Shown here piece after piece: positions 25,999-50,110 of a stretch of 64,000 bases of DNA. The number at the start of each line of letters is the position of its first letter. Within the stretch, counting starts at the first letter, position 1. The position numbers and the translations under genes were made by a program. The notes under the pieces are model-generated. The model was not told where the DNA came from and made no database searches. It saw nothing but the letters and a program-made list of their open reading frames with translations. The DNA is from Xylophilus sp. GOD-11R (GTDB lineage: Bacteria; Pseudomonadota; Gammaproteobacteria; Burkholderiales; Burkholderiaceae_C), in contig NZ_CP137854.1 of the NCBI RefSeq assembly GCF_033546935.1, positions 1,364,001 through 1,428,000 of the forward strand, given 5' to 3'.

Positions 25999-26622
25999 TC
26001 ACGGCGGCCCGACGTACTCCAGGTAGCTTGCGAACACGCCGACGTGCACGAAAGCGGCTTCGGACGAGTCGGGCCACAGATCGCGTGCGTCGAATCGCAC
26101 GTCGAAGGTCGGCTCCACCGTGGAGGGCAGGGCGTGGCCGCAGGCGTCCGGGTAGGGATAGGCGGGCGACACGTCGACGATCACGCCGGTCTGGCCGCGG
26201 ATGTAGCCGGGCATGCGGGTGTGGCCGGAGACGAATTCGTTCTTCACCCGCACGGTGTCGCCCACCTGCAGCACGCGTTCGGGCCGGGCGGCCGCGCGGC
26301 CCGGGCCGATGGGGCGCGACAGCGGATAGGCGCCGCCGGCCGCGTCGGCCAGGGCCTGCTGCGTCAGCAGGCCCTTTTCGACGCAGAGCGTGGCGGCGGC
26401 GGTCAGCACCCGTTCGTAGTAGCTGGCGGCCATGTAGTGGCAGGGATCCATGCGTTCGATGGCATGGCGGTATTCGTCCATGTTGTAGAGCCCGGCGCCG
26501 ACCAGCCGGCCGGAGATGGCGGTGGCTTCCAGTTCCCAGCGCTCCTTGAAGCGGCGGGAGTCGTCGGTGCGGACCACCGGGCCGAAACCCTGCTTGCCGC
26601 CGAGGTCGTGCATGCCGTCCAT
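25999..26622 (-). CDS. nthB: Nitrile hydratase beta subunit (cluster I)
   Basis: A 207-residue beta subunit. The N-terminus MDGMHDLGGKQGFGPV and the RHAIERM-PCHYMAASYYERVL segment, which carries the arginine that contacts the oxidised cysteines of the alpha subunit, are conserved. The C-terminal SH3-like barrel starts near VGDTVRVKN and includes HTRMPGYIRGQTGVI. Its ATG overlaps the alpha-subunit stop (TGATG), so the two are translationally coupled. It is the last gene of cluster I. No metallochaperone follows, unlike cluster II. Confidence 0.92.
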   Translation of the reverse strand: MDGMHDLGGKQGFGPVVRTDDSRRFKERWELEATAISGRLVGAGLYNMDEYRHAIERMDPCHYMAASYYERVLTAAATLCVEKGLLTQQALADAAGGAYPLSRPIGPGRAAARPERVLQVGDTVRVKNEFVSGHTRMPGYIRGQTGVIVDVSPAYPYPDACGHALPSTVEPTFDVRFDARDLWPDSSEAAFVHVGVFASYLEYVGPP

Positions 26623-27251
26623 CAGGCCTCCGTGGTGGTGGTTGGGGTGGGGGTGGCGGGCAGCGCGGCGTACGGGGCTTCGAGCCGTGCCACGCCGATG
26701 AGGGCGTCCTGGGTGACGAGTGCCCGCAGGCGCTCCTCGGGCCAGCCGACGGTGGCGGGCGGCTGCCAGGGCAGCACCATGTAGCGGGTGTCGGCGGTGG
26801 TGTCCCAGACCTGCACCGTCATGGTGTCGGGCAGGTCCAGGCCCAGTTCGCGCAGCACGGTGCGCGACTGCCGCACGATGCGGGCGCGGTATTCGAGGTT
26901 CTTGTACCAGCCCGGCGCCATGCCGACGATGGTGACGGCGGTGCAGGAGCACAGCGTGCAGCAGATGACGTTGTGCTGCGTGGCCGTGTTCTCGCGCACC
27001 GCCAGCTTGCGGTGGTGCTCGGGCATGCGGATGCCGAACTCGGCCGCCGCCGCACGCCCGTCGGCCAGCAGGCGCGCCTTGAAGGCGGGGTCGGTCCAGG
27101 CGCGGGCGACCAGGCGGGCGCCGTGCTCGGGCACCCAGTGGTCGTGTGTCTCGCGGTCGAAGGCGTCGATGTGGGCGGCGTTCACCAGGCCGGTCTGGCC
27201 GGTGAGCTTTTGCAGCGCGGCCACGCGCTGTTCGATGGGGGCGGTGTTCAA
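26622..27251 (-). CDS. nthA: Nitrile hydratase alpha subunit, cobalt-type (cluster I)
   Basis: A 209-residue alpha subunit, which hydrates a nitrile-like substrate to an amide. The metal claw is CTLCSC (Cys98, Ser102, Cys101/103); Thr at the second position is the cobalt-type form. The motif is followed by T-A-V-T-I-V-G rather than the usual Y-P-W-P, while PGWYKNLEYRARIVRQ is conserved. The missing aromatic/proline stretch and the Thr after CSC recall the thiocyanate hydrolase gamma subunit. The enzyme may therefore act on an unusual small substrate. It lies 73 bases after the DMT transporter gene. Confidence 0.9.
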   Translation of the reverse strand: MNTAPIEQRVAALQKLTGQTGLVNAAHIDAFDRETHDHWVPEHGARLVARAWTDPAFKARLLADGRAAAAEFGIRMPEHHRKLAVRENTATQHNVICCTLCSCTAVTIVGMAPGWYKNLEYRARIVRQSRTVLRELGLDLPDTMTVQVWDTTADTRYMVLPWQPPATVGWPEERLRALVTQDALIGVARLEAPYAALPATPTPTTTTEA

Positions 27252-27324
27252 GTGCAGCTCCTGTTCTCGTGGACGATGGGAGGGTGGGAATAGAAGAGAA
27301 GGAAGACGGCGCGGGCCGGGCCGC

Positions 27325-28230
27325 CTAGCCCGAGCCGACCGCCAGGCGCGGCAGCCGCCAGCGCTCCCCGGTGATCACCATCAGGCCCGACACCATGACC
27401 ACGGCGCCGCCGACGAAGACCCAGAGCCCGGGCACGTCGCCGATGCCGATCAGCGCGAAACCCACGGCCCACAGCAGCGTGGTGTATTCCAGCGGGGCCA
27501 GCGCCGAGGCTTCGGCGTTGCGCACGCTGACCATCATGAACATCTGCCCCAGGCCGCCGGCCAGACCCGAGAGGATCAGCAGCCACCACTGCCGCGCGCT
27601 GGGCATGGTCCAGCCCGCGAAGGTGGTGGCGGCCAGCAGGGCCGAGGCGAGCAGGAAGGATACGATGAGGGAGCCCGGCGGCATGTCCGACAGGCGGCGG
27701 ATCTCGATGGTGGCCGCCGCGCTGCAGAAGGCACCCAGCAGGGCCAGGCCGCAGCCCGGCAGCCAGGCGCCCTGCAGCCCGGCGGCCTTCTCGTGCGAGG
27801 GCGCCAGCAGCATGATCGCCATGCCGGCCAGCCCCATCGCCAGCGCCAGCCAGCGCACCACGCCCACGGTTTCCTGCAGCACCAGCCAGGCCAGCAGCAC
27901 GATCATCAGCGGCGCCAGGTAGCTGATCGACAGGGCGTAGGTCACCGGAATGAACTGCAGCGCGGCCGACGCGCCGAACACCGAGCCGCAGCCGAAAAGC
28001 GTGCGCCGCAGCAGCGCCCTGGGCGAGCGCGGGCGCAGGCTCTCGCGCAACTGCCCACGCCAGCCCAGCCACAGCAGCACCGGCACCAGGCCGATGGCGC
28101 TGCGGAAGAACACGATCTGGCCGATGCCGCTAGCCACGGTCGCGTGCTTGATGGCCAGGAGCATGACGGTGAAGAAGAAAGTCGAGGCGAGCTTGGCGAG
28201 CAGGCCGGTACGAAAGGACGCTGGTGGCAT
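27325..28230 (-). CDS. EamA/DMT-family transporter
   Basis: A 301-residue membrane protein with ten predicted hydrophobic segments arranged as two EamA repeats (about residues 8-140 and 150-290), ending in a short basic tail. Members export metabolites or amino acids, or in some cases import small solutes. It sits inside cluster I, between amidase and nitrile hydratase genes, which suggests it moves a substrate or product of this pathway. The direction of transport cannot be told. Confidence 0.88.
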   Translation of the reverse strand: MPPASFRTGLLAKLASTFFFTVMLLAIKHATVASGIGQIVFFRSAIGLVPVLLWLGWRGQLRESLRPRSPRALLRRTLFGCGSVFGASAALQFIPVTYALSISYLAPLMIVLLAWLVLQETVGVVRWLALAMGLAGMAIMLLAPSHEKAAGLQGAWLPGCGLALLGAFCSAAATIEIRRLSDMPPGSLIVSFLLASALLAATTFAGWTMPSARQWWLLILSGLAGGLGQMFMMVSVRNAEASALAPLEYTTLLWAVGFALIGIGDVPGLWVFVGGAVVMVSGLMVITGERWRLPRLAVGSG

Positions 28231-28260
28231 GGAAGGCGTGAGAAAGGGGATACGGGCGCA

Positions 28261-29670
28261 TCAACCAGCGAGCGTGGCGGCGATGGCGGCGGGGGCCGGC
28301 CGCGCGCACCGCGCGGCACCGGCCTGCCAGCCGCTGGCCGACTCCAGCAGCGTGGCGCCGCGCAGCAGCGTCGCCTCGCGATGGAAGCCGGCGGCCAGCT
28401 GCAGGCCGATCGGCAGGCCGGCGTGGTCCAGCCCCACCGGCACGCTGATCGCGGGGTGGCCGGTCACGCTGTAGAGGCTCGCCTGCACCGCCTGCGAGCG
28501 AAGGAAGCTGTCGCCGAAGGAGTCGAGCCGGGGCGCGGTGCGCAGTACCGTGGGGTTGAGCAGCAGGTCGCATTGCCCGAACGCCGATTCGACCGCGTCG
28601 CTCAGGCTGCGGCGCAGCCGCTGCGCGTCGAGGTATTCGCCCGCGTCCAGAGTGGCGCCCAGGGCGAAGCGGCGGGTGGAGGTCACGCTGTAGTCGTCGA
28701 AGCGTTGGGCGAGGTCGGCCCGGTGTACCGAGAAGGCTTCCGAGAGCATCACCACCCAGTTGCAGGCGTAGAACTGCGCGTAGGGCGGCAGCTCGACATC
28801 CACCACGCTCAAACCGAGCGCGCGCAGGGCGGCGATGCAGCGCTCCAGCGCGGCGGCCACGTCCGGCTGCAGTTCCGGTGATGCAGCGAACTGGCTGCGC
28901 GGCACGCCGATGGTGATCGGCCGGGCGGCGTCGTGGCCGGTGCAGGGCGCGCGGCGCGGCGCCATGGCCTGCAGCGCCAGGCGGGCGTCGTCGACGCTGG
29001 CGGTGATCGGGCCGCAATGGTCCAGCGACCAGGCGAGCGGGAAGATGCCTTCGCGCGATACGCGGTCGTAAGTGGGCTTGAGGCCCACCGCACCCGACCA
29101 GGCGGCCGGCAGGCGCACCGAGCCGGCGGTGTCGGTGCCGATGGCCAGCCGCACGAAGCCCGCCGCCACCGCCGCGCCGGCGCCGGAAGACGAACTGCCC
29201 GGCGCATGCGCCAGGTTCCAGGGGTTGCGCGCGGGCGGAAATGGCAGGTCGAAGGCTGGCCCGCCGAGCGCGAACTCATGCGTGGCCAGCTTGCCGAGCA
29301 GCACCGCGCCGGCCTCGGTCATGCGGCGCACGACGACGGCGTCGTCGGCCGCCCGGTGCGCGAGCCGCAGCCGGGAGTGGCAGGTGGTGGCTTCGCCACG
29401 CACGTCGATCAGGTCTTTCACCGCGTACGGAATGCCCTGCAGCGGGCCGCGATCGCGGCCCTCGCGGAAGTCCGCATCGGCGGCGGCGGCTTCGGCCAGC
29501 GCACGGGCGGTGGTGAGCGCGGTGAAGGCGTGGATGCGGGTGTCGTGCGCGGCCACCAGGTCCAGGCAATGGCGGGTCAGCTCGACCGAGCCGAGCGACC
29601 CCTCGCGCAGCCAGCGGCCGAGCGTGGCGATGGAGGGCAGGCCGGCAACCCGCAGTCGTTCGAGGCTCAT
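28261..29670 (-). CDS. Amidase-signature hydrolase (cluster I)
   Basis: A 469-residue amidase-signature enzyme. The catalytic triad is Lys85 (PYAVKDLID), cis-Ser160 (in GSSSSGAGAA) and nucleophile Ser184 (TAGSVRLP), with the normal 24-residue spacing between the serines. It resembles GatA/AtzE-type amidases. Its start overlaps the stop of a small AtzG-like gene (ATGA). In this setting it could hydrolyse the amide made by the nitrile hydratase, or a carboxylated urea/amide by analogy with AtzE. The substrate is not determined. Confidence 0.9.
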   Translation of the reverse strand: MSLERLRVAGLPSIATLGRWLREGSLGSVELTRHCLDLVAAHDTRIHAFTALTTARALAEAAAADADFREGRDRGPLQGIPYAVKDLIDVRGEATTCHSRLRLAHRAADDAVVVRRMTEAGAVLLGKLATHEFALGGPAFDLPFPPARNPWNLAHAPGSSSSGAGAAVAAGFVRLAIGTDTAGSVRLPAAWSGAVGLKPTYDRVSREGIFPLAWSLDHCGPITASVDDARLALQAMAPRRAPCTGHDAARPITIGVPRSQFAASPELQPDVAAALERCIAALRALGLSVVDVELPPYAQFYACNWVVMLSEAFSVHRADLAQRFDDYSVTSTRRFALGATLDAGEYLDAQRLRRSLSDAVESAFGQCDLLLNPTVLRTAPRLDSFGDSFLRSQAVQASLYSVTGHPAISVPVGLDHAGLPIGLQLAAGFHREATLLRGATLLESASGWQAGAARCARPAPAAIAATLAG

Positions 29671-29855
29671 GCGCCGGCACCTTCACGGTCGAGGGATGGC
29701 GGCGGTGTCCAAGGTTGCGCGGCCAGCGGCGTGGACTGGACGAGGGCGACGAGGGCGCGCAGGTCTTGGTGATTGCGCGTGAATTCGGCGTGGCGCTCCG
29801 GCGGCACGGCGATGCCGTGGCGGGCGAGCAGGTCGGGCCAGTCGGGCTGGCTCAT
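29667..29855 (-). CDS. Small AtzG/GatC-like amidase partner (cluster I)
   Basis: A 62-residue protein: two short helices (DWPDLLARHGIAVPPERHAEFTRNHQDLRALVALV) and a Pro-rich tail PWTPPPSLD. The size, the helix pattern and the four-base overlap with an amidase gene match the AtzG (DUF4089) and GatC-type subunits that wrap around their amidase. Sequence identity with the cluster II AtzG copy is weak, so the assignment rests on shape and position. Confidence 0.65.
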   Translation of the reverse strand: MSQPDWPDLLARHGIAVPPERHAEFTRNHQDLRALVALVQSTPLAAQPWTPPPSLDREGAGA

Positions 29856-29951
29856 CGGATCGCCTGACGCACCGGCGCGGGGAATGACAGGAGCCGGCGC
29901 ACCAGCAAAGGGAGTCGGGCACCGTTATCTGGCCAGGTTTTTAGTAAGAAG

Positions 29952-29964
29952 TCCATATGGTGGA
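29952..29964. promoter_or_regulatory. Candidate IclR operator A
   Basis: TCCA-TATGG-TGGA, preceded by G, lies 97 bases upstream of the cluster I start. It has the same GTCCA-N5-TGGA form as sites at 30109 and 34135. Confidence 0.5.
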
Positions 29965-30108
29965 ATTTTGGTTTGTAGGAATTCACAGGATTTTTTCCTG
30001 GGCAGCCCTGCGTTTTTTCCAGTGGAGGATGACACGGTTTTGGCAATCGATTCGACAGGTTGGCGCGAATCTCGCTTCATCGGTTGCATGAATCATACCA
30101 ATTGGATG

Positions 30109-30121
30109 TCCACTATATGGA
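30109..30121. promoter_or_regulatory. Candidate IclR operator B
   Basis: TCCA-CTATA-TGGA, preceded by G, lies 58 bases upstream of the TRAP permease start. It shares the GTCCA-N5-TGGA form with sites A and C. Confidence 0.5.
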
Positions 30122-30178
30122 ACTAATGAAACGCAGTGCGGATGCCCGCCTCCTTGCCCACCTGCCGGGAGCGCGGCG

Positions 30179-32074
30179 ATGAGCGCGCATGTCGTCGAAG
30201 GCGTCATGCCCCGTCCGGCCGATTCCCTGCCGCCGGCTCCCGCATCCGGCCTGCTGCCGCGGGTCGAGCGCGCCGTGGAATGGGTGGTGGAGCGCGTGGC
30301 GGCCCTGCTGCTGGTCGCCGAAATCGTGGTGCTGTTCGTGGGTGTCTGCGCCCGCTACGTGTTCCATGCGCCCATCACCTGGACCGAGGAGACCGCCACC
30401 ACCCTGTTCATCTGGCTGGCGATGCTGGGCGCGGTCATCGCCATGCGGCGCAGCGAGCACATGCGGCTGGGTTTCGTGCGCGACCAGTTCGGCGAGCGCA
30501 GCCGGCGCTGGGTGGACGCGACGGCGTTGGCGGTGGTGATGCTCTTCCTGGGGCTGCTGGTGTGGCCCGCCTTCGAATACGTGATGGACCACGCCGCCAT
30601 CACCAAGCCTTCGCTCGGCATCAGCGACGGCTGGCGCGCCGCGGCCCTGCCGGCCGGCATCGTGCTGATGCTGCTGCTGGCCGTGCGCCAGCTGCTGCGC
30701 GAGCACACGCTCGACCGGGTGGCCGGCGCCTGCGCGGTGGTGCTGGTGCTCTCGGCGGCGCTGTATGCGGCGCAGGGGCTGCTGGCGGAGCTGGGCAACC
30801 TCAACCTGCTGCTGTTCTTCGTGGCGATCGTGGGGGTGTGCATCGCCATCGGCGTGCCGATCGCCTTCGCCTTCGGCGCGGCCACCGCCGGCTACCTGGC
30901 GCTGGTGGCCGACATCCCGCTGGTGCTGTCGGTCAACCGGCTCGACGAGGGCATGTCGCACATCATCCTGCTGGCGATTCCGCTGTTCGTCTTTCTCGGC
31001 CAGCTGCTGGAGGCGACCGGTATCGCCCGGGTGCTGATCACGCTGATCGCCGCGCTGGTGGGGCACTACCGCAGCGGGCTGTCGTATGTGTTGCTGGGCA
31101 GCATGTATGTGGTGTCGGGCATCTCGGGCTCCAAGGCGGCCGACATGGCGGCCATCGCGCCCGCGCTGTTTCCGGAAATGCGGGCGCGCGGCGCGAAACC
31201 GGGGCGGCTGGCCGCGCTGCTGTCGTCCTCGGGGGCGATGTCCGAGACGATTCCGCCGAGCCTGGTGCTGATCGCCATCGGCTCGGTCACCGGCGTATCG
31301 ATCTCGGCGCTGTTCGTGGGCGGACTGCTGCCGGCGGCCGTGGCGCTGGGCGTGCTGGCGGTGTTCGCCTTTTTCGAGGGGCGGCGCGACACGGCGGCCG
31401 CCTTGCCCAAGGCCAGCGGCCGCCAGATCTGGCAGGCGCTGTGGGTGGCGCTGCCAGCGCTGGCGCTGCCGGTGATCATCCGCTTCGCGGTCACCGACGG
31501 CATCGCCACGGCCACCGAGGTGTCCACCATCGGCGTGCTCTATGCGCTGATCGTCGGTCTTCTGGTCTACCGCCGCTTCGATGTGCGCCGCATCCTGCCG
31601 ATGCTGGTGGAAACCGCCAGCCTGTCGGGTGCCATCCTCATCATCATCGGCATGGCCACCGGCATGGCCTGGGCGCTCACCAGCAGCGGTTTTTCCGACC
31701 AGATCCTGGACCTGATGCGCGCCATTCCGGGCGGGCGGACGGGCTTTCTGGCCATCTCCATCCTGGTCTTCATCGTGCTGGGCAGCCTGCTCGAAGGCAT
31801 TCCGGTGATCGTGCTGCTCGGGCCGCTGCTGTTCCCGGTGGCGCGCGCCATGGGCATCCACGAGGTGCACTACTCCATGGTGGTGATCCTGGCCATGGGC
31901 GTGGGTCTGTTCATGCCGCCTTTCGGCGTGGGCTTCTATACGGCCTGCGCCATCGGCAAGGTGCCGCCGGACGAGGCGATGCGCTTCATGTGGCCTTACC
32001 TCGCGGCGATGCTGATCGCGCTGGTGCTGGTCGCGGCCTTCCCCTGGCTGTCGATCGGGTTCCTGGTGCGCTAG
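30179..32074 (+). CDS. TRAP transporter fused small/large permease (DctQ-DctM)
   Basis: A 631-residue membrane protein. The N-terminal part (about residues 25-180) is a DctQ-type four-helix subunit ([27 protein letters not shown]). After a short linker comes a full DctM large subunit from about residue 215, with [29 protein letters not shown] and [10 protein letters not shown]. Fused QM proteins are common in TRAP systems for C4-dicarboxylates and related organic acids. The matching DctP protein is 1.0 kb beyond its end on the other strand, after the IclR regulator. Operator B lies in its promoter region. Confidence 0.92.
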
Positions 32075-32078
32075 GCGC

Positions 32079-32111
32079 CCGGGCGGCGAAGGTAAACCTT
32101 CCGCCGCCCGG
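32079..32111. terminator. Bidirectional hairpin terminator
   Basis: CCGGGCGGC-GAAGG (32079-32092) pairs with CCTTCCGCCGCCCGG (32097-32111), with one bulged base and a TAAA loop. It lies between the converging stops of the TRAP permease and the IclR gene. Only two Ts follow on the plus strand. Confidence 0.55.
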
Positions 32112-32115
32112 TTGC

Positions 32116-32934
32116 TCAGGCTTGCCGACCCGCCAGCTCCAGTGCGGTGATGGCGCGGGCTTCTTCTTCCAGGAGGCGCCGGGCCTGCAGCAGGTCGTCG
32201 CCCTGCAGGCGGGAGGCCAGCGTGGCCATGCTGAGCGCGGCGATGATCCGGCCTTCTTGGTCGAACACCGGCACGCCGATGCCCGACATCTCGGGAATCA
32301 TCCGGCCCGGATTGAAGGCGTAGCCGGTGCGCTGGGCCTCGCGGATGTCGCCCAGCATCTGCTCGATGGTGATGCCCGGGTAGGGCAGGTTGGGGTTGTC
32401 GCGCACCAGGGCGTCGATCTCGGCCTGCGGACGGAAGGCCAGCAGGGCCAGTCCGCCCGCGCTGATGCCCAGCGGGCGGCGCTCGCCGATGTTGAGCGTG
32501 AGGATGCGGATCGGGTAGTCGCCGACCACGCAGTCCACGCAGATCGAATCCCATCCGGAAGGAATGCTGAGGTAGATGGTGTTCTGCGTGGTCGCGGCCA
32601 GGCGGTGCAGCGAGGGTTCGGCCAGTGCGCGGATGTTCTGCGTACGGCTCGCCGACAGGCCGACCGCCAGCGACTCGGGGCCGGGCAGGTAGACGCGGGC
32701 GTCATCTCCCACCTGCAGAAAGCCTTCTTCCACCAGCGCCGCGAGGATGCGGTGCACCGTGGGTTTGGTGAGCCCGCTGGCGTCGACCGCCTCGGTCAGC
32801 GTGATGCCGCCGGTGCGCGACACCGCGTACTTGAGCACCCGCAGGGCCCGCTGGATGCTTTGCGCGCCCTCGGTTTCCATGGGGGCGTTGCCGAACGGCA
32901 GCGCGCCGGGCGTGGGGGAAGTCTTGCGCTTCAT
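32116..32934 (-). CDS. IclR-family transcriptional regulator
   Basis: A 272-residue IclR protein. The winged HTH covers about residues 22-85 (SIQRALRVLKYAVSRTGGITLTEAVDASGLTKPTVHRIL), and the IclR effector domain follows to the C-terminus, with GERRPLGISAGGLALLA in the ligand pocket region. It is 98 bases downstream of dctP on the same strand, probably in one operon. It is the best candidate to bind the three GTCCA-N5-TGGA sites around cluster I, the TRAP permease and dctP. Confidence 0.92.
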   Translation of the reverse strand: MKRKTSPTPGALPFGNAPMETEGAQSIQRALRVLKYAVSRTGGITLTEAVDASGLTKPTVHRILAALVEEGFLQVGDDARVYLPGPESLAVGLSASRTQNIRALAEPSLHRLAATTQNTIYLSIPSGWDSICVDCVVGDYPIRILTLNIGERRPLGISAGGLALLAFRPQAEIDALVRDNPNLPYPGITIEQMLGDIREAQRTGYAFNPGRMIPEMSGIGVPVFDQEGRIIAALSMATLASRLQGDDLLQARRLLEEEARAITALELAGRQA

Positions 32935-33032
32935 CCGTGGAGTCTGTCTGGTGGTGGTTGCCGGCGGGGCGCGATGCCGGCCCTGCGCGGCCGCCGGCGC
33001 AGGCGCTGGGCCTGCCCGGTGCGGTGTGGTCT

Positions 33033-34043
33033 TCAGGCCAGTTTACCGGTGTATTTTTCCATCGCGGCCCACAGATCCGGGCGGTAGTTGCCCTGCGCCT
33101 TCTTGTAGAAGCCGGCTGCGCTCAGGCGGTCGCGGAAGTCGCTGCTCTTCACGTCGACGAACTGCATGCCCTTGGCGGTGAGGTCGGCGCGCAGGCTCTG
33201 GTTGAGCCGCTCGGAATTGGCGCGCTGCGACACTCCGGCCTGGTCGACCGCCTTCTCGATGGCGGCGCGTGTCTTGGGATCCATCTTTTCCCAACGCGAC
33301 TTGTTCACGATGATCCACATGCCGTCCCACATGTGATTGCTCATCGCCACGTATTTCTGCACTTCGTACATCTTGGAGAAGAAGATGGGCGTCAGCGGGT
33401 TCTCCTGGCCGTCGGCCACGCGGGTCTGCAGTGCCGAATAGGTTTCTGCCCAGGAGATGTTGGCGGGCGAGGCGCCCAGCGACTGGAAGAGCGAGACCCA
33501 GATCTCGGCCGGCGGGATGCGGATCTTGAAGCCCTTCAGGTCGTCCGGGCTGGCGATGCGTTTTTCGGACGAGGTGATCTGCCGGAAACCCATGTCCCAG
33601 ATGCGCCCGACGCAGTGCAGGCCCTTGGCCTCGATGTCGGCCTGGAGCTGCCTGCCGAGTTCGCCGTCCATGGCGGCCCACACCTTGTCGTAGCCCGACC
33701 AGGCGAAACCCACGCCCGTGACCGAGGTGCTCGGCACCAGGTTGGACAGCACGATGCTGGAGATGGCCACCATGTCGAGCGCGCCGGCGCGCACCTGCGA
33801 CAGCATGTCCATGTCGGATCCGAGCTGGCTGTTGGGGAACACGCGCAGGTCGACGTCGCCGCCGGTGGCCTCCTTCAAGGTGGCGGCGGCCTCCTTGGCG
33901 CCCAGGGTGACGGGGTGGTCGACGGCAGTGACCGAGCCAAACTTGAGCGTGGTCCTGGCGGCGTGCGCCGGCAGCCAGGCCAGCGAGCCGGTGCTGGCGA
34001 GCAGTGGCGCGGTCTTGAGAAGGTGGCGGCGGGAAAGAGTCAT
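33033..34043 (-). CDS. TRAP transporter substrate-binding protein (DctP)
   Basis: A 336-residue periplasmic protein. A signal peptide with a twin-Arg-like start (SRRHLLKTAPLLAS) ends near AHAA. The DctP core includes GSDMDMLSQVRAGALDMVAIS, the arginine region FKIRIPPAEIW that ligates the carboxylate in this family, and ADGQENPLTPIFF. It should deliver an organic acid to the QM permease encoded at 30179. Transcription runs away from operator C into dctP and on to iclR. Confidence 0.92.
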   Translation of the reverse strand: MTLSRRHLLKTAPLLASTGSLAWLPAHAARTTLKFGSVTAVDHPVTLGAKEAAATLKEATGGDVDLRVFPNSQLGSDMDMLSQVRAGALDMVAISSIVLSNLVPSTSVTGVGFAWSGYDKVWAAMDGELGRQLQADIEAKGLHCVGRIWDMGFRQITSSEKRIASPDDLKGFKIRIPPAEIWVSLFQSLGASPANISWAETYSALQTRVADGQENPLTPIFFSKMYEVQKYVAMSNHMWDGMWIIVNKSRWEKMDPKTRAAIEKAVDQAGVSQRANSERLNQSLRADLTAKGMQFVDVKSSDFRDRLSAAGFYKKAQGNYRPDLWAAMEKYTGKLA

Positions 34044-34105
34044 GGTGGCCTCGTCAGTTGATCCGTAATGTGGAACGTAATTTTGGTTAGCGGCGAAATT
34101 CGGTT

Positions 34106-34120
34106 TTTACTCCGAGTAAA
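34106..34120. promoter_or_regulatory. Perfect palindrome in the dctP promoter region
   Basis: TTTACTC-C-GAGTAAA is a 7-1-7 inverted repeat 63 bases upstream of dctP and 15 bases from operator C. It may bind a second regulator or be part of a composite operator. Confidence 0.4.
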
Positions 34121-34134
34121 TTCATTCATCGAGG

Positions 34135-34147
34135 TCCATAATATGGA
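34135..34147. promoter_or_regulatory. Candidate IclR operator C
   Basis: TCCA-TAATA-TGGA, preceded by G, lies 92 bases upstream of the dctP start. It is the third member of the GTCCA-N5-TGGA set. Confidence 0.5.
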
Positions 34148-34453
34148 TTGTCAATGCGTCGCTGACCACAATTAGCAAAATCGATGCCTGCGCTTTCAGC
34201 GTGGAGGAGCCGGCCGCACCCGTTCCTGGTGCATGGCGACAAAGCCACCGATCCGCGGAAGGGCCAGCCGGCCGGTCGCATGAGATGCGTGCAACCCTGT
34301 CACAACGAAGTGCAATCGGTACCTTTAGCGACAGCTTCTGATTGCGCCCTTCGTAGACTGAAAGTCCGCTCGTGCTCCAAGCCGGGCTATCACGCTCGGT
34401 CGACAACTGACGCTGGCGTGGCCATCCAATCCATTTCCGGGGGAGCCGAGCCA

Positions 34454-39908: not shown

Positions 39909-39924
39909 CGTCGCGCAGCAGGCA

Positions 39925-41411: not shown

Positions 41412-41459
41412 GACGGTCTCCTGTTGAATCGAGTTAAATACTAATCGGTACAAAAGTTG

Positions 41460-41503: not shown

Positions 41504-41519
41504 TATAAATGGTATTCGC

Positions 41520-42770: not shown

Positions 42771-42788
42771 AAAACGGGGGGGCGCGCG

Positions 42789-44309: not shown

Positions 44310-44312
44310 GCA

Positions 44313-45257
44313 TCAACCCGCGTGCGGGCCGGTCGCCAAACCAGGGAGCATAGGCGCTCGGGCGGCTTGCATCCGGGGCGCGCACAGGGTCGCCACCAGA
44401 TGTCCGAGCTGCCGGTTGCCGGCGATCGCACCTTTGCGGATGCAGACGCGGTGGTGGCGCGGCGCCCAGGCATCGGTGAGTTCCACGGCCACCATGCGGC
44501 CGACTTCCTGTTTCTCCAGGGCCGACGCCGGAACGATGCTGACCCCCGCACCGGAGGCCACCAAGCCCATCACCGCGTCGAAGCTGGCCACCTGCACCCG
44601 CACGTCCAGCCGGCCGCCGAGCGAGGCGGCCTGGTTCATCAGGTAGGTATGCAGGGCCGACCCGTTCTGCAGGCAGATCCAGGGCTGGTCGAAACAGTCG
44701 GCGAAACGCACGCTGGCCTGCCGGCTCAGGCGGCTGCCCGGCGGCACGATCAAGACGAAACGGTCTTCGCGATAGGGCAGGAAATCGAGCTCGGGATGGT
44801 CGGAATCGACCGCCACCACGCCGATGTCGGCGCGGCCCTGCGCCACCGCCAGGATGATGTCGGTGCCCAGCCGTTCCTCCAGCGTGATGCGCACCGAGGG
44901 ATGGTGGGCGAAGAAGCGCGCCAGGTCGTCCGGCAGGTGGAAATTGACCACGTTGTTGTTGGCGAAGAAGGTCAGGTGCGTGGTCAGCCCCAGGGCGTAG
45001 GGCGACAGGTCGGCGTGCATCTGTTCCAGCCCCGCCACGCACTGGCGTACGTGTTCCAGCATGACGTTGCCGGCAGCGGTGAGGGCCACGCCGCGTGCGC
45101 GCCGCACGAAGAGCGAAACGCCCAGCGCTTCTTCGAGCCCCTTCAGGCGCAGGCTGGCCGACGAGGCGGCCAGATGGGCGCGCGCCGCGCCGCGCGAGAG
45201 GCTGCCTTCCTCGGCGATGGCGAGGAAGACGCGTAGATCGACCAGGTCGTAGTGCAT
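44313..45257 (-). CDS. LysR-family transcriptional regulator (cluster II)
   Basis: A 314-residue LTTR with an N-terminal HTH (LVDLRVFLAIAEEGSLSRGAARAHLAASSASLRLKGLEEALG) and a CynR/CbbR-type effector domain. It is divergent from cluster II across 349 bases that hold an LTTR-type inverted repeat. Its likely target is the AtzG-AtzE-AtzH-nitrile hydratase operon. The FAD monooxygenase downstream may be part of the same regulon or an unrelated passenger. Confidence 0.92.
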   Translation of the reverse strand: MHYDLVDLRVFLAIAEEGSLSRGAARAHLAASSASLRLKGLEEALGVSLFVRRARGVALTAAGNVMLEHVRQCVAGLEQMHADLSPYALGLTTHLTFFANNNVVNFHLPDDLARFFAHHPSVRITLEERLGTDIILAVAQGRADIGVVAVDSDHPELDFLPYREDRFVLIVPPGSRLSRQASVRFADCFDQPWICLQNGSALHTYLMNQAASLGGRLDVRVQVASFDAVMGLVASGAGVSIVPASALEKQEVGRMVAVELTDAWAPRHHRVCIRKGAIAGNRQLGHLVATLCAPRMQAARAPMLPGLATGPHAG

Positions 45258-45334
45258 GCGTTTGCCTTTGGCGAATTCGTGTTTCGCCCGATGGGAATGT
45301 GCACCCGTGCGGGGCGCGAATCTTCGCTAGCAGG

Positions 45335-45351
45335 TTTCGTGCACAACGAAA
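45335..45351. promoter_or_regulatory. LysR-type operator candidate for cluster II
   Basis: TTTCGT-GCACA-ACGAAA is a perfect 6-5-6 inverted repeat with the T-N11-A form of LTTR sites. It lies 78 bases from the LysR start. A second, weaker GCGAA-N7-TTCGC repeat of the same length is at 45271-45287. Confidence 0.5.
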
Positions 45352-45424
45352 GGTCTGCTTGCCAGAACTCACTTGTTGGTGACGGTCGGCCTGCGGACAC
45401 TGGCGCCGCACCAGGAGTCGCCCC

Positions 45425-45572
45425 ATGTCGATGAAAAAAATTTTCCGCAGCTCGCTCGCCGCCGCGTTGGCCGCCACCGGCCTGACCGCCGGGGCCCGGA
45501 CCGCAGCGCCGACCTATCCGGACCGCCCGATCGCCGGAGCTCATCGACGCCGCCCACATCACGCTGCAGTGA
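45425..45572 (+). pseudogene. Bug-type receptor remnant (internal deletion)
   Basis: The ATG at 45425, preceded by AGGAG, opens a typical signal peptide (MSMKKIFRSSLAAALAA) followed by TYPDRPI, the start of a mature Bug receptor. Right after it the sequence jumps: in another frame it reads PELIDAAHITLQ and stops at 45570-45572, like the end of a protein. About 300 codons appear to be missing. It stands at the head of cluster II, whose last gene is an intact Bug receptor. Confidence 0.65.
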
Positions 45573-45606
45573 TGCCGGCCTTCCGTCATCAAGAAAGAGA
45601 TTGACC

Positions 45607-45807
45607 ATGAACACATCAGCCCCACCCGGCCCGGGCGCGCTCGACCGGCTTCTCTCGGCGACCATCGACACCTTCGGCCTGGCCGTGGAGCCGTCGTGGC
45701 GGGAAGAGGCGCGCTCCGTCGTCGGCGTCATCGCCGCCGCCGCGAGCGTGATCCAGGCAGCCGACCTCGGAGACCGCGCGGAACCCGCCGCGGTGTACCG
45801 GCCATGA
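45607..45807 (+). CDS. AtzG-like (DUF4089) amidase partner (cluster II)
   Basis: A 66-residue two-helix protein (LDRLLSATIDTFGLAVEPSWREEARSVVGVIAAAASVIQ) ending DLGDRAEPAAVYRP. This is the size and pattern of AtzG/DUF4089 proteins, which bind the AtzE amidase and shield it; the final 'EPAAVYRP' is typical of the family. It overlaps the amidase gene by four bases (ATGA). It is the first intact gene of cluster II. Confidence 0.85.
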   Translation: MNTSAPPGPGALDRLLSATIDTFGLAVEPSWREEARSVVGVIAAAASVIQAADLGDRAEPAAVYRP

Positions 45808-47216
45808 GCGCGACGCTGGAACTCGCATCGCCCGCGTCGGCGTCCGCCCAGGCCATTGCATCGGCCGTGGCGCGTGGCGACACCAGCGCCCGGGCCGTGG
45901 TCGAGGCGACGCTGCAGCGCATCGAGGCGCTGAACCCGGTGGTCAACGCCTTCACCGACGTCACCGCCGAGCGGGCCCTGCGGGCCGCCGACGCGCTCGA
46001 CCGCCGCGTGGCCGGTGGCGGTGTGCCCGGCGTGCTGGCGGGCGTGCCTTTCGCGGCCAAGAACCTGTTCGACATCCGGGGCCTGCCGACCCGGGCCGGC
46101 TCCCGAATCAACCGCGAGCTGCCGCCGGCGGGCAGCGACGCATTCTTGATCGCACAGCTGGAACAGCAGGGCGCGATCCTCGTCGGCGGCCTGAACATGG
46201 GCGAATACGCCTGCGACTTCACCGGCGAGAACCACCACGACGGCGCATCGCGCAATCCGCACGGGCTGGACCACATGACCGGCGGTTCGTCCGGCGGTTC
46301 CGGCGCGGCCGTGGCGGCGAAGCTGGTGCCGATCGCGCTGGGCTCCGACACCAACGGCTCCATCCGCGTGCCGTCTTCGCTGTGCGGCACCTTCGGGCTC
46401 AAGCCGACCTATGGCCGGTTGTCGCGCGGCGGGAGTTTTCCCTTCGTTTCCGCCTTCGACCACCTCGGGCCGTTCGGCCGCTCGGTGGCCGACCTGGCGC
46501 TGGTCTACGACGCGCTGCAGGGCGCCGATGCGGCCGACCCGATGCAGAGCGTACGGCCGCCCGAGCCGACCTTGCAGCAGATCGACCTGGGCACCGAAGG
46601 CCTGCGTATCGCCGTGGCCGGCGGCTACTTTCGCCGCCTGGGCCAGCCCGAGGCTTTCGAGGCGGTCGACCGGGTGGCGCAGGCGCTCGGCGTGACGCGC
46701 CTGGTCGAGCTGCCGCAGGCCGAGGTTGCACGCGCGGCGGCCATCGTCATCACCACGGCCGAAGGCGCGGCGCTGCATGTGCAGCGGCTGCAGCACCGCA
46801 TCCAGGACTTCGATCCGGCGGTGCGCGCCCGCCTGCTCGGCGGCCTGGCGACACCGGCGGCCTGGGTGGAGGCCGCCCAGCGCTTTCGCCGGCATTTCCG
46901 CGAACAGGTGCTGCGGGTGTTCGACACCGTCGATGTGCTGCTCGCACCCGCCACGCCGTGCCGCGCGCCGCGCATCGGCCAGAAGACCATGGTGCTCGAC
47001 GGCCAGACCCTGCCGGTGCGGCCGAACCTGGGCGTGTTCACCCAGCCCATCTCGTTCGTCGGCCTGCCGGTGGTGGCCGTGCCGGTGCTCGACGGCGCGG
47101 CGTTGCCCATCGGGGTGCAGGTGATCGCGCCGCCCTGGCGGGAAGACCTGGCGCTGCGGGTCGCCCGCGAGCTGGAACGCCGGGGCGTGGTCGGCTGCCG
47201 CGAAGCGAACCTGTAG
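45804..47216 (+). CDS. AtzE-family amidohydrolase (cluster II)
   Basis: A 470-residue amidase-signature enzyme close to AtzE, the 1-carboxybiuret amidohydrolase of cyanuric acid breakdown. The triad is Lys86 (FAAKNLFD), cis-Ser162 and nucleophile Ser186 (SDTNGSIRVP). AtzE-like stretches include GGLNMGEYACDFTGENHHDG and GRLSRGGSFPFVSAFDHLGP. The AtzG-AtzE-AtzH gene order is that of the cyanuric acid pathway, but AtzD is absent here and nitrile hydratase genes follow, so the real substrate may differ. Confidence 0.9.
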   Translation: MSATLELASPASASAQAIASAVARGDTSARAVVEATLQRIEALNPVVNAFTDVTAERALRAADALDRRVAGGGVPGVLAGVPFAAKNLFDIRGLPTRAGSRINRELPPAGSDAFLIAQLEQQGAILVGGLNMGEYACDFTGENHHDGASRNPHGLDHMTGGSSGGSGAAVAAKLVPIALGSDTNGSIRVPSSLCGTFGLKPTYGRLSRGGSFPFVSAFDHLGPFGRSVADLALVYDALQGADAADPMQSVRPPEPTLQQIDLGTEGLRIAVAGGYFRRLGQPEAFEAVDRVAQALGVTRLVELPQAEVARAAAIVITTAEGAALHVQRLQHRIQDFDPAVRARLLGGLATPAAWVEAAQRFRRHFREQVLRVFDTVDVLLAPATPCRAPRIGQKTMVLDGQTLPVRPNLGVFTQPISFVGLPVVAVPVLDGAALPIGVQVIAPPWREDLALRVARELERRGVVGCREANL

Positions 47217-47234
47217 AAGAAAAGGAAGACGACG

Positions 47235-47627
47235 ATGTTGGTCAACGACCCCACGGTGCTTGCCGAAGTGCGGCAGGCTTTCGAGCGCTACGAAGCCGCG
47301 CTCGTCTCCAACGACCTGGACGGCATGGACGCCTGCTTCTGGCACGACGGCCGCACGATCCGCTACGGCATCGCCGAGAACCTGCACGGCATCGAGGAGA
47401 TCCGCGCCTTTCGCAGCGGCCGTTCGCCGGTCGGGCTGCAACGCGTGCTGAGCCGCACCGAGATCACCACCTTCGGCACCGACAGCGCCACGGCCAGCAC
47501 GCTCTTCGAGCGCGAGGCCCAGCCCGGCATGATCGGCCGCCAGCAACAGACCTGGGCGCGGCTGGACGGCGCCTGGAAGATCGTGGCGGCGCACGTCAGC
47601 GTGATCGCCCGGCCGGTGGCGGGCTAG
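47235..47627 (+). CDS. AtzH-like protein (DUF3225, SnoaL/NTF2 fold)
   Basis: A 130-residue NTF2-fold protein. It begins VLAEVRQAFERYEAALVSNDLDGMDACFWHDGRTIRYG and ends with a QTWARLDGAWKIVAAHVS strand, the pattern of AtzH-type proteins. AtzH acts on dicarboxyurea after AtzE in cyanuric acid degradation. It lies 18 bases after the AtzE-like gene. The catalytic assignment here is by analogy only. Confidence 0.85.
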   Translation: MLVNDPTVLAEVRQAFERYEAALVSNDLDGMDACFWHDGRTIRYGIAENLHGIEEIRAFRSGRSPVGLQRVLSRTEITTFGTDSATASTLFEREAQPGMIGRQQQTWARLDGAWKIVAAHVSVIARPVAG

Positions 47628-47636
47628 GGAAGCGCC

Positions 47637-48866
47637 ATGCCCCACGCACCGACGTCCACCAACTCGGCATCGGCGGATCGCCGTCTGCCCGTCACCGTGC
47701 TCAGCGGTTTCCTGGGCGCGGGCAAGACGACCCTGCTCAACCACCTGCTCGGCAGCCTGCACGGCATGCGCATCGCGGTCGTGGTCAACGACATGAGTGC
47801 GATCAACATCGATGCACACCGGGTGCAGGACGCCGCCGCCCTCACACGCACCGACTACGCGCTGGTGGAGATGACCAACGGCTGCATTTGCTGCACCCTG
47901 CGCGAAGACCTGCTGGGCGAGGTGGCGCGGCTGGCCGCCGACGGCCGCTTCGACTACCTGCTGATCGAGTCCACCGGCATCGGCGAGCCGCTGCCCGTGG
48001 CCGAGACCTTCACCTTCATGGACGAGGCCGGCCGGGTGCTGTCGGACGTGGCGCGGCTCGACACCATGGTGACGGTGGTCGACGGCACGGACTACCTGGC
48101 ACGGTTGCGGTCGCAGCCGGCGCCGTTTGCCGCGCAGGAACCGGATCTGCACGACCTGCTGGTGAGCCAGGTCGAGTTCGCCGACGTCATCGTCGTCGCC
48201 AAGGGCGATTTGATATCGCCCGAACAGCAGGCCAGCCTGCGCGGCGTGCTGCGTGGCCTGAACAGCCGGGCGCGCATCGTGGTGTCGCACGGCGGTGATG
48301 TGGCACCGGAATTGCTGGTGAACACGCAGGCCTTCGACATCGAGCAGGCGGCGGCGGCCCCCGGCTGGCTGGCGACCATGCGCGGCGAGGAGCATTCCGA
48401 GCAGGACGCCTACGGCATCGACTCCTTCGTCTACGGCTCGCGCATCCCGTTCCATCCGGCCCGGTTCGCCGACTTCCTGGCCCGTCATGGCCGCGACCCG
48501 GCGGTGCTGCGCGCCAAGGGCTACCTGTGGCTGGCGCACCGCGTCACCGAGATGGGCGTGCTGGCCAAGGCCGGCGCCTCGCCGATGGCCTGCGACTGGT
48601 CCGGACCGTGGTGGCGTTTCGTCGACGAGCGCACCTGGCCGCAGAACGACGACCTGCGGGCCTTCATCCGCAGCCGCTGGTCCGAAGACGTGGGCGACTG
48701 CCGACAGGAACTGGTCTTCATCGGCCAACGCCTGGACCGGCAGGCGATCACCGACGCACTCGATGCCTGCCGGCTCACCGACGACGAAATCCTGCAGGGC
48801 GCCGACGCCTGGGCAGCCTATGAAACACAAGCGACGATGAAAGGAAATACCCGTGCACTTCAATAA
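47637..48866 (+). CDS. CobW/G3E GTPase, nitrile hydratase activator-type metallochaperone
   Basis: A 409-residue P-loop GTPase. Walker A is GFLGAGKTT (residues 24-32), the metal-binding CICC is at 83-86 (NGCICCTLREDLL), and ESTGIGEP is the switch. The C-terminal CobW domain runs from about 255. Its position directly before the alpha subunit gene, with a 14-base overlap, marks it as the chaperone that loads metal into the nitrile hydratase (P47K-type activator). Cluster I has no such gene and may depend on this one. Confidence 0.92.
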   Translation: MPHAPTSTNSASADRRLPVTVLSGFLGAGKTTLLNHLLGSLHGMRIAVVVNDMSAINIDAHRVQDAAALTRTDYALVEMTNGCICCTLREDLLGEVARLAADGRFDYLLIESTGIGEPLPVAETFTFMDEAGRVLSDVARLDTMVTVVDGTDYLARLRSQPAPFAAQEPDLHDLLVSQVEFADVIVVAKGDLISPEQQASLRGVLRGLNSRARIVVSHGGDVAPELLVNTQAFDIEQAAAAPGWLATMRGEEHSEQDAYGIDSFVYGSRIPFHPARFADFLARHGRDPAVLRAKGYLWLAHRVTEMGVLAKAGASPMACDWSGPWWRFVDERTWPQNDDLRAFIRSRWSEDVGDCRQELVFIGQRLDRQAITDALDACRLTDDEILQGADAWAAYETQATMKGNTRALQ

Positions 48867-49485
48867 CGAGAAGGAAAGAACGCTCGCCTTGCGCGACGCG
48901 TTGATCGCCAAGGGCATGCATACGCAGGCCGAGGTCGATGCGGTGGAAGAGGGCTTCGAGACCTGGACGCCCGAGAACGGCGCCGCCGTGGTGGCGCGGG
49001 CCTGGTGCGATCCGGCGTTCAAGCAGCGGCTGCTGGCCGACGCGCTGGGCACCGCCAACGAGGTGGTGCAGCCGGTGCCCTTCGGCGGCTGGGACGCGGT
49101 GGCGGTCGAGAACACCGACAACGTGCACAACGTGCTGGTCTGCACCCTGTGCTCCTGCACCATCAAGTCGCTGATCGGCCAGCCGCCGCATTGGTACAAG
49201 AGCCTGGCCTATCGGGCGCGCCTGGTGCGCGAGCCGCGTGCGGTGCTGCAGGAGTTCGGCCTGGAACTGGCGCCGGAGGTGGAGATCAAGGTCTGGGACA
49301 TCACCGCCGAGACCGGCTACATGGTGATCCCGGCGCGACCCGCCGGCACCGATGGCTGGAGCGAGGCGGAGCTGGCCTCCATCGTCACCAAGAAATGCCT
49401 GATCGGCGTGGAGCAGCCCGACGTTACCCGCGTGCGGCGCGATGCCGTGTCGGTCGGCGGTGCGCGGGAGGTGCAGCATGCCTGA
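48853..49485 (+). CDS. nthA: Nitrile hydratase alpha subunit, cobalt-type (cluster II)
   Basis: A 210-residue alpha subunit. The claw is CTLCSC (Cys97, Cys100, Ser101, Cys102). As in cluster I, the following residues T-I-K-S-L-I-G replace the canonical Y-P-W-P, and PPHWYKSLAYRARLVREPR is conserved. Thr at position two of the claw indicates the cobalt form. The start is GTG with AAAGGAAA upstream; it overlaps the GTPase gene by 14 bases. The N-terminal 70 residues differ from cluster I. Confidence 0.93.
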   Translation: MHFNNEKERTLALRDALIAKGMHTQAEVDAVEEGFETWTPENGAAVVARAWCDPAFKQRLLADALGTANEVVQPVPFGGWDAVAVENTDNVHNVLVCTLCSCTIKSLIGQPPHWYKSLAYRARLVREPRAVLQEFGLELAPEVEIKVWDITAETGYMVIPARPAGTDGWSEAELASIVTKKCLIGVEQPDVTRVRRDAVSVGGAREVQHA

Positions 49486-50110
49486 TGTGCACGACCTAGG
49501 CGGCGCCACCGGCTTTGGCGCCATCCCGCACCTGGAAAAGGACTACGAATACCACGAGCGCTGGGAGTGGACGCTGATGGCCGTGTTGCGCCTGGGCGCG
49601 AAGAAGGGCTGGTACCGCACCGACGCCTACCGCCACGCGCTCGAGCGCCTGCCGCGCGACTTCTACCTGAGCAAGTCCTACTACGACCGCATGCTGAGCG
49701 GCATCACCAACGCCTATTTCGAGGCCGGCATCGTCACGCCTGACGAGATCCGGCAGCACCTCGAGCCCCATGTGCAGATCCCCATGTCCGGCCCCCGGGG
49801 CCCGGGCCATGCAGGTGCCGCCGAGCCGCAGCGGGTGCGCTTCGCGGCCGGCGATCGCGTCCGGGTGCGGGCGGACCTGCCCGACGGCCATGTGCGCGCT
49901 CCCGCCTACGTGCGTGGGCACGCCGGCACCATCGTCGACCGGGGCCGTCATGCGCTGCCGTTCCCTGGCCGGGTGGGGCATCGCGAGGAAGGCGCGGCCG
50001 AGTTCACCTACCGCGTCGAATTCGACCGGCGTGAGCTCTGGGAAGACGCGACCGACGCCGGCACGGTGATCGTCGACCTCTCCGACAGCTACCTCGAACC
50101 GGCGGCCTGA
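49478..50110 (+). CDS. nthB: Nitrile hydratase beta subunit (cluster II)
   Basis: A 210-residue beta subunit. The N-terminus MPDVHDLGGATGFGAIP, the YRHALERLPRDFYLSKSYYDRML segment with the arginine that contacts the claw, and the C-terminal barrel from RFAAGDRVRVR are present. It overlaps the alpha gene by eight bases, the reverse order of coupling from cluster I but the same alpha-beta order. The two subunits should form the heterodimer. Confidence 0.93.
   Translation: MPDVHDLGGATGFGAIPHLEKDYEYHERWEWTLMAVLRLGAKKGWYRTDAYRHALERLPRDFYLSKSYYDRMLSGITNAYFEAGIVTPDEIRQHLEPHVQIPMSGPRGPGHAGAAEPQRVRFAAGDRVRVRADLPDGHVRAPAYVRGHAGTIVDRGRHALPFPGRVGHREEGAAEFTYRVEFDRRELWEDATDAGTVIVDLSDSYLEPAA

Follow-up and report, generated by a model that had tools for sequence, protein, structure and literature searches.

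The combination of AtzG, AtzE and AtzH genes with nitrile hydratase (NHase) genes found in the window, a stretch of 64,000 nucleotides of the Xylophilus sp. GOD-11R genome, is real and conserved and points, as the preliminary description had proposed, to a nitrogen-rich or nitrile-type substrate. The locus carrying it (cluster II) is, judged by synteny and phylogeny, a rare but conserved, co-inherited gene set. It probably forms a nitrogen-scavenging operon whose NHase, AtzEG and AtzH would act in sequence on what is probably a nitrile- or cyanamide-like nitrogen source. A second locus nearby (cluster I) looks ordinary and separately assembled, combining NHase and amidase genes with transporters of its own. 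The combination of AtzGEH and NHase is undescribed as far as a full-text literature search shows: no paper found there links AtzG or AtzE to NHase.

Gene content of the two clusters

Genes and strands are as first described (Table 1). Both clusters code for an NHase alpha and beta pair and for a tiny protein whose gene overlaps that of the amidase by ATGA (29667-29670 in cluster I, 45804-45807 in cluster II). Family matches support the AtzH-like protein, CobW/COG0523 GTPase, cupin and Bug/TctC receptor of cluster II and the EamA (DMT), TRAP DctQM and DctP proteins of cluster I, which has neither AtzH nor chaperone. The spacing of 16 kb holds (~15.8 kb), while the end first given to cluster II does not, its Bug gene running to 51485.

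Table 1. Position in the window and supporting matches of genes in and next to clusters I and II.
Feature	Position	Strand	Support
Cluster I
NHase beta	25999..26622	-	TIGR03888 181 bits, cut-off 152
NHase alpha, TTG start, motif CTLCSCT	26622..27251	-	PF02979 224 bits; best PDB match 4fm4, 270 bits
EamA/DMT transporter	27325..28230	-	PF00892
Amidase signature enzyme, not AtzE	28261..29670	-	PF01425 322 bits; AtzE models below cut-off
Orphan 62-aa ORF, probably GatC/AtzG-like	29667..29855	-	No family match; position, profile, fold hints
Neighbour: fused TRAP DctQM	30179..32074	+	PF04290, PF06808
Neighbour: IclR regulator	32116..32934	-	PF01614, PF09339
Neighbour: TRAP DctP receptor	33033..34043	-	PF03480
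Cluster II (AtzG-AtzE-AtzH, COG0523 GTPase, NHase alpha and beta, cupin, Bug receptor)	45607-51485
LysR regulator, divergent from cluster II	44313..45257	-	PF03466, PF00126; same place in Xylophilus rhododendri, 76% identity
AtzG-like small subunit	45607..45807	+	PF13318 20.6 bits, cut-off 24; ATGA overlap with AtzE
AtzE family amidase	45804..47216	+	NF006631 708 bits, cut-off 461; PDB 6c62 465.6 bits
AtzH/HpxZ (DUF3225)	47235..47627	+	NF033625 176 bits, cut-off 135; pocket 9/9
COG0523/CobW-type GTPase, likely NHase metallochaperone	47637..48866	+	PF02492, PF07683; CICC motif, P-loop
NHase alpha, rare clade, motif CTLCSCT	48853..49485	+	PF02979 228 bits
NHase beta	49478..50110	+	PF21006, PF02211; TIGR03888 153.4 bits, cut-off 152.2
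Small cupin	50114..50500	+	PF07883; 89% identity to X. rhododendri counterpart
Bug/TctC periplasmic receptor	50517..51485	+	PF03401 211 bits; 83% identity to X. rhododendri counterpart

The cluster II amidase exceeds the cut-offs of both NCBIfam AtzE models (for TIGR02715, 677 bits against 425.75). The small protein encoded in front of it falls just below the PF13318 gathering score; its AtzG identity is supported by its position and by a 54.5% identical X. rhododendri orthologue with a conserved overlap. Neither its sequence nor its structure model retrieved a PDB relative. AtzH has all nine published pocket residues (Tyr22, Arg46, Arg63, Arg66, Arg73, Phe94, Arg96, Gln106, Gln108) and also scores above the HpxZ model cut-off. 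The GTPase combines a COG0523 fold with a CXCC motif and adjoins the NHase genes, the features that define the NHase activator Nha3, and is likely the metallochaperone of this NHase. It misses the cut-offs of the ZigA model (502 bits, cut-off 600) and of the CobW equivalog; its best listed relatives in a plasmid search were named ZigA or had no name. The cupin scores a weak 21 bits for cupin mandelonitrile lyase, whose cut-off is 140. The ORF downstream has no Pfam match. AtzD was found neither among the Pfam-scanned genes at 42789-51485 around cluster II nor by a PF09663 search of the whole genome, in which the positive control gave no match either.

The alpha subunits of both clusters match PF02979, contain C-x-L-C-S-C and are accompanied by a beta subunit, which identifies NHases; both are below the stricter TIGR01323 cut-off of 249.85 bits (224 and 230 bits). 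Their CTLCSCT motif combines features of the motifs published for Fe enzymes (CSLCSCT) and Co enzymes (CTLCSCY; PMC2770081 section 7). In a tree into which 24 of the 27 chosen loci entered, three having been removed by a length and stop filter, they group with the rows whose motif ends in T (35/36, the remaining row lacking the motif), while the 15 rows with a final Y stand apart. The two alphas fall in separate clades. The cluster II alpha belongs to a tight clade of 19 rows (100/100) and, by this placement, is of a distinct and rare lineage.

Conservation and co-inheritance of cluster II

Genes for LysR, AtzG, AtzE, AtzH, CobW, NHase alpha and beta, cupin and Bug are all syntenic in X. rhododendri, with 54-90% identity and a dN/dS of 0.17-0.44 across the nine genes compared, denoting purifying selection on each. 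Homologous clusters that hold both functions thus exist for cluster II. Its AtzE forms a tight clade of 8 rows (100/100) nested in AtzE. Five of the eight non-self AtzE relatives (76-84% identity) lie on a record equal in size to that of an alpha relative (6,989,698, 5,854,580, 191,046, 13,581 and 10,702 bases); equal size is an indirect indication, and in the two complete genomes (6.99 and 5.85 Mb), one of which was read as DNA, it shows no more than a shared replicon. The other three are on short contigs with no partner record of equal size, and the same goes for the majority of the 14 relatives of the alpha. Among the cases in which relatives of AtzE and NHase alpha share a replicon, or a record length, are Variovorax sp. 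J22P168, Bordetella sp. N and two further contigs.

None of 96 background NHase loci has an AtzE of at least 50% identity beside it, many of these loci being on short contigs and two pairs (L043/L128, L092/L134) looking like the same contig, which leaves ~94 distinct loci. The background includes at least 80 hydratases of 47-56% identity from a contig search, with none of the close clade among the matches listed. Among 159 plasmid records with a match, an alpha of at least 60% identity was absent. The cluster II alpha clade occurs in one of 399 genomes of the order-level sample, namely this one. In the family sample, matches at E 1e-50 were found in 17 of 399 genomes and identity above 54% solely in this genome. 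That sample has AtzH above cut-off in 119 genomes and NHase in 68; the two lie at most 20 kb apart on one contig in two of the 399 (this genome and G587), as counted by eye from two lists of fragmented assemblies. G587 was rejected as a second AtzGEH-NHase locus: its AtzH (38% identity) and amidase (30%) are separated by ~14-15 kb from the NHase, which belongs to a different clade. The operon is found in two of the seven genomes of the genus and is therefore dispensable; synteny and co-inheritance indicate that its assembly is more than chance.

Cluster I and its relation to cluster II

The two clusters had been described as versions of one pathway. They do share an architecture in which a small gene overlaps that of an amidase and accompanies an NHase pair, 16 kb apart, and the cluster I small ORF is probably GatC/AtzG-like. 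It is nevertheless very improbable that one derives from the other. AtzE membership stands for the amidase of cluster II and fails for that of cluster I (285 bits to NF006631, cut-off 461; 276 bits to TIGR02715, cut-off 425.75), whose enzyme sits on a long branch outside the 18-row AtzE clade. With 34% identity, the two amidases lie on separate lineages within the amidase signature family; unrelatedness of the amidases, named beforehand as an argument against parallel clusters, thus largely holds (same superfamily, different subfamilies). The NHases also belong to different clades (47% identity for alpha, 40% for beta), and that of cluster I is nearer to a third locus of the same genome (65% and 62%, respectively), 2 Mb away. 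Cluster I moreover has no AtzH and no chaperone. The amidase tree, the NHase clades and these identities led to rejection of the idea that either cluster arose as a copy of the other. In a genome of 5.13 Mb, two of three NHase loci falling inside 22 kb is, by arithmetic, a ~2.6% event; closeness alone is weak evidence against chance.

The AtzG-like identity of the tiny gene is supported by position and orthologue in cluster II, where the Pfam score is just below the cut-off, and is suggestive in cluster I. The 62-aa ORF has no Pfam (up to E 10) or NCBIfam match, and a protein database search returned only itself. A small ORF of GatC/AtzG appearance is found at the amidase start in 14 of the 29 nearest homologues of the cluster I amidase, as judged by eye and with one locus truncated by a contig end. 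Against a combined profile the ORF scored 13.3 bits, second among 2314 sequences and exceeded by 1 of 2000 shuffles, while two narrower profiles gave no standout. Its structure model (mean pLDDT 80) retrieved seven PDB chains, of which three are from transamidosome/GATC entries, all with E > 4 and each insignificant alone. Overlap position, homologous loci, profile and fold together suggest a GatC/AtzG-like protein.

Proposed function of cluster II

The Bug receptor would bind the substrate and the COG0523 GTPase would load NHase with metal. NHase would add water to a carbon-nitrogen triple bond, giving an amide or ureide. From this product AtzEG would release NH3 by hydrolysis and leave a carboxylate or carbamate, whose new carboxyl group AtzH would split off as CO2. 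The operon would be under the control of LysR. The order of steps, the chaperone, uptake and regulatory roles and the sharing of one substrate are inferred from the genes present.

A cyanamide-type (N-cyano) substrate is the best chemical fit. In a tentative decyanation route, R-NH-C#N would be converted by NHase to R-NH-CO-NH2, by AtzEG to R-NH-COO- and NH3, and by AtzH to R-NH2 and CO2. AtzEG (ureide to carbamate) and AtzH (N-carboxy loss) would keep their reported chemistry in this route. Since the AtzH pocket is rich in arginine, R would carry a carboxylate. Bacterial NHases hydrate N-cyano insecticides, according to the available part of PMC12646544, and cyanamide occurs naturally in legumes, according to that of PMC4650597. 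Another, similarly tentative special case of the sequential model starts from an ordinary, cyanoacetate-like C-nitrile bearing a carboxylate or carbonyl, which would be hydrated and then hydrolysed to a malonate-like diacid that AtzH would decarboxylate. For C-nitriles, the pairing of NHase and amidase is the textbook pathway in the accessible parts of PMC8955678 and PMC11205548, and the AtzH pocket accommodated 1,3-dicarboxyacetone in the crystallised Arg73Lys variant (PMC6219798); however, the reported AtzH reaction cleaves an N-carboxy and not a C-C bond (PMC6219798), and the known AtzE substrate, 1-carboxybiuret, is a ureide.

It is unlikely that AtzGEH processes a separate ureide, similar to oxalurate or biuret, and NHase another substrate, with merely regulator and receptor in common. 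In favour of this, many genomes have AtzGEH clusters that function, or are assumed to function, in the absence of NHase (PMC6219798 section 14), and the cluster II AtzH also exceeds the HpxZ cut-off. Against it, the AtzGEH and NHase genes remain together, with frame overlaps kept and parallel clades, and a second AtzGEH set, accompanied by an allophanate hydrolase, is already present in this genome at 0.73 Mb. Most improbable is a hydratase akin to thiocyanate hydrolase: the TIGR03887 model of that enzyme gives 175 bits for cluster II, but its cut-off is 291 bits (175 and 153 obtained), among PDB entries nitrile hydratases reach 172-211 bits and thiocyanate hydrolase 139-141, and cluster II has a two-subunit gene set whose beta exceeds the TIGR03888 cut-off. 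This identity was rejected on the TIGR03887 cut-off and the PDB scores.

Comparison with known systems

Cluster II shares with the atzDGEHF operon of Pseudomonas sp. ADP the AtzG-AtzE-AtzH order and overlap, an AtzE scoring 465 bits to 6c62 and the complete AtzH pocket, but differs by having NHase, COG0523 GTPase, cupin and Bug receptor and no AtzD or AtzF. The enterobacterial ggt-linked AtzGEH genes are named HpxXYZ. These and other proteobacterial atzG-atzE-atzH clusters resemble cluster II in lacking AtzD and having LysR nearby (PMC6219798 section 14); unlike cluster II, no context named there has NHase, and "nitrile" is absent from the main text. The initial assignment of AtzGEH to cyanuric acid degradation was incomplete, atzG-atzE-atzH being reported in more than thirty genomes and rarely with atzD or atzF (PMC6219798 section 14), so the missing AtzD says little.

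Classical NHase-amidase clusters of Rhodococcus and Pseudomonas chlororaphis B23 comprise the NHase pair, an amidase and the activator P47K, as described in the available text of PMC8955678. By that description cluster II likewise joins its NHase pair to an enzyme of the amidase signature family and an activator of COG0523 type, but its amidase is the two-subunit AtzEG, followed by AtzH. A genome search for aldoxime dehydratase gave no match, nor did its positive control. For the alphas of cluster I and the third locus, the nearest solved relative is 4fm4 (270 and 290 bits, respectively), the Comamonas testosteroni Ni1 Fe NHase; its motif is CSLCSCT as opposed to CTLCSCT here. The Ni1 NHase was expressed without activator, as far as the accessible part of PMC7329996 tells, and cluster I resembles it in having none. 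GatCAB, proposed as ancestor of AtzEG (PMC6219798), similarly combines an amidase with a small partner; unlike it, the clusters have no GatB, and GatC-GatA of this genome is encoded at a different locus (L008).

AtzGEH is far more widespread than cyanuric acid catabolism, and its genomic contexts give little on the specific function of AtzH (PMC6219798 section 14). An operon that encodes its own amide-forming enzyme narrows the AtzGEH substrate class and makes the question testable. One genome has three hydratases, each with an amidase from one of three lineages; the pairing was therefore assembled more than once.

Gene organization of the clusters

The window (G000:C1:1364001-1428000) belongs to a single-contig genome of 5.13 Mb and carries two gene clusters with nitrile hydratase (NHase) genes. 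Beyond cluster I lie a divergent TRAP DctQM gene and then genes for an IclR regulator and a DctP receptor. A LysR gene is divergent from cluster II and adjoins an FAD aromatic-ring hydroxylase-like gene that is not found in the corresponding X. rhododendri stretch. The products of two large ORFs directly downstream of cluster II (1146 aa counted from the first TTG, and 414 aa) have no Pfam match.

Features of clusters I and II and of their surroundings (window coordinates)
Feature	Position	Strand
Cluster I NHase beta	25999-26622	-
Cluster I NHase alpha	26622-27251	-
Cluster I EamA transporter	27325-28230	-
Cluster I amidase	28261-29670	-
Cluster I orphan ORF, 62 aa	29667-29855	-
FAD aromatic-ring hydroxylase-like	42789-44309	-
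Cluster II AtzG-like	45607-45807	+
Cluster II AtzE	45804-47216	+
Cluster II AtzH	47235-47627	+
Cluster II COG0523 GTPase	47637-48866	+
Cluster II NHase alpha	48853-49485	+
Cluster II NHase beta	49478-50110	+
Cluster II cupin	50114-50500	+
Cluster II Bug receptor	50517-51485	+
Large ORF	51601-55041	+
Large ORF	55227-56471	-

Family assignment of cluster II proteins

AtzE-II (the suffix marks cluster II proteins) scores 708 and 677 bits with the two AtzE models, over the cut-off of each, and is matched by the solved AtzE at 465.6 bits, the best GatA reaching 218. AtzH-II is over the HpxZ model cut-off and retains, at a constant offset of three, 9/9 of the residues lining the AtzH pocket (Tyr22, Arg46, Arg63, Arg66, Arg73, Phe94, Arg96, Gln106, Gln108; PMC6219798). 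This retention is not automatic since chain 2owp, overall a better match to AtzH-II, deviates at Arg66 and Arg96 as read from the alignment. The GTPase carries a CXCC motif and a P-loop; the Nha3 subgroup of COG0523, comprising NHase activators, occurs only with Fe-type NHase according to section 7 of PMC2770081. The alphas of both clusters have the motif CTLCSCT, and the tree places them with T-ending rows, away from Y-ending Co-type rows. The cupin weakly resembles cupin mandelonitrile lyase (21 bits against a cut-off of 140), which is a lead only.

Cluster II is a rare, co-inherited and conserved unit

Cluster II is rare and its genes are co-inherited. Among the best 120 of 7536 scored alpha-II relatives, 14 have 73-90% identity, 4 have 64-66% and the remainder at most 61%. 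The AtzE-II matches listed include eight non-self proteins at 76-84%, the next being at most 73%. Five of these eight are on contigs equal in size to that of an alpha relative (Bordetella sp. N, 6,989,698 bases; X. rhododendri, 5,854,580; Variovorax sp. J22P168, 191,046; two others of 13,581 and 10,702), a pairing that rests on the recorded sizes, the DNA itself having been seen for X. rhododendri; the other three (contigs 5766, 2676 and 5401) have no equal-sized alpha contig. In an amidase tree that left out P0126 and P0127, eight AtzE-II rows, representing 7 distinct proteins, make up a clade with 100/100 support within an 18-row AtzE group. In a separate alpha tree, NHase alphas of the cluster II type form a clade of 19 (100/100, stem 1.02). 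The branching order is alike in both trees, with the 13,581-base and Variovorax records first, then the 10,702-base record and then the rest, several forks inside both clades being weak. A second tier of the hydratase clade (P0015-P0018) lies on contigs of 9.2-13.6 kb, whose sizes have no match among the best 120 AtzE relatives.

Cluster II is a conserved unit, and its hydratase is present in 2/7 genomes of the genus Xylophilus. The X. rhododendri gene order is the same by tblastn (identities: LysR 76%, AtzG 57%, AtzE 79%, AtzH 79%, GTPase 79%, alpha 90%, beta 86%, cupin 91%, Bug 83%), save for an additional Bug gene between LysR and AtzG (positions 7264-8202 of that locus, L127), 34% identical to the downstream one. 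Gene overlaps are preserved (AtzG/AtzE 4 bases, GTPase/alpha 14, alpha/beta 8), and nine aligned genes give dN/dS of 0.17-0.44 at 54.5-89.5% protein identity.

Tblastn of AtzE-II against 96 other NHase loci (80 named, 16 unnamed) gave no match of at least 50% identity; three of them (L070, L077, L100) have amidases at 28-33%. Of 399 sampled family genomes, 119 have an AtzH above the cut-off and 68 an NHase alpha, these 68 including some short partial matches; only in the Xylophilus genome of the window and in G587 do the two lie at most 20 kb apart. AtzH is thus common by itself, while AtzGEH with NHase is not, G587 having been ruled out as an equivalent because its genes are a different set.

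Cluster I and the other related loci

Cluster I is something else than cluster II. Its amidase is below the AtzE cut-offs, at most 44% identical to anything in 299 related genomes (five candidates scored per genome), and sits on a long branch outside AtzE without a well-supported home. The cluster I NHase shares 65% (alpha) and 62% (beta) identity with that of a third locus at 3.378 Mb (L024, 8423-11063) against 47% and 40% with that of cluster II. The third locus pairs its NHase, whose alpha likewise has CTLCSCT, with a third amidase lineage, and is adjoined by NMT1-type ABC genes and a TauD dioxygenase gene. The closest PDB entry to the cluster I alpha is 4fm4, which we take to be the Ni1 enzyme. 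Ni1 NHase was produced without an activator (PMC7329996), a possible reason for the lack of one in cluster I.

The 62-aa ORF is an orphan, its only protein-database relative being itself, and is probably a GatC/AtzG-like partner: a small ORF of this look occupies the same place beside 14/29 homologous amidases, its profile score is close to the top of the controls, and its predicted model has two helices, with 3/7 PDB fold matches being transamidosome or GATC chains, though no single match is significant. The preliminary description saw two versions of one pathway. The parallel architecture, a small ORF by an amidase together with an NHase, is fairly described; the two versions are instead convergence, as the amidase differs and the cluster I NHase is nearer the third locus.

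A second AtzGEH set lies at 0.736-0.738 Mb, its AtzE being 58.5% identical to AtzE-II. Genes for allophanate hydrolase, CN-hydrolase, isochorismatase, and Bmp-type and other ABC transporters are found nearby (L023, 0.728-0.746 Mb), an arrangement resembling that of Comamonadaceae in PMC6219798. The AtzGEH contexts given in section 14 of that paper include none with NHase, and full-text searches of open-licence literature found no description linking AtzG or AtzE with nitrile hydratase. A genome search for AtzD (PF09663) gave no match, nor did the control genomes, so that its absence is not proven.

Proposed role of cluster II

AtzEG converts 1-carboxybiuret to 1,3-dicarboxyurea and NH3, with AtzH proposed to remove CO2 from the product (PMC6219798). 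Read generally, AtzEGH would convert a ureide to an amine, NH3 and CO2. Were the substrate an N-cyano compound, a hydratase ahead of AtzEGH would provide this ureide; acetamiprid and sulfoxaflor are examples of N-cyano insecticides that bacterial NHases hydrate (PMC12646544). The substrate could alternatively be a C-nitrile bearing a carboxylate. Our confidence in a sequential route is divided about evenly between an N-cyano substrate, by itself doubtful, and a carboxylate-bearing C-nitrile, to which we give the same low weight, the remainder being mixed. In its generic form, with the hydratase acting before AtzEGH, this route is the reading of cluster II that we moderately favour.
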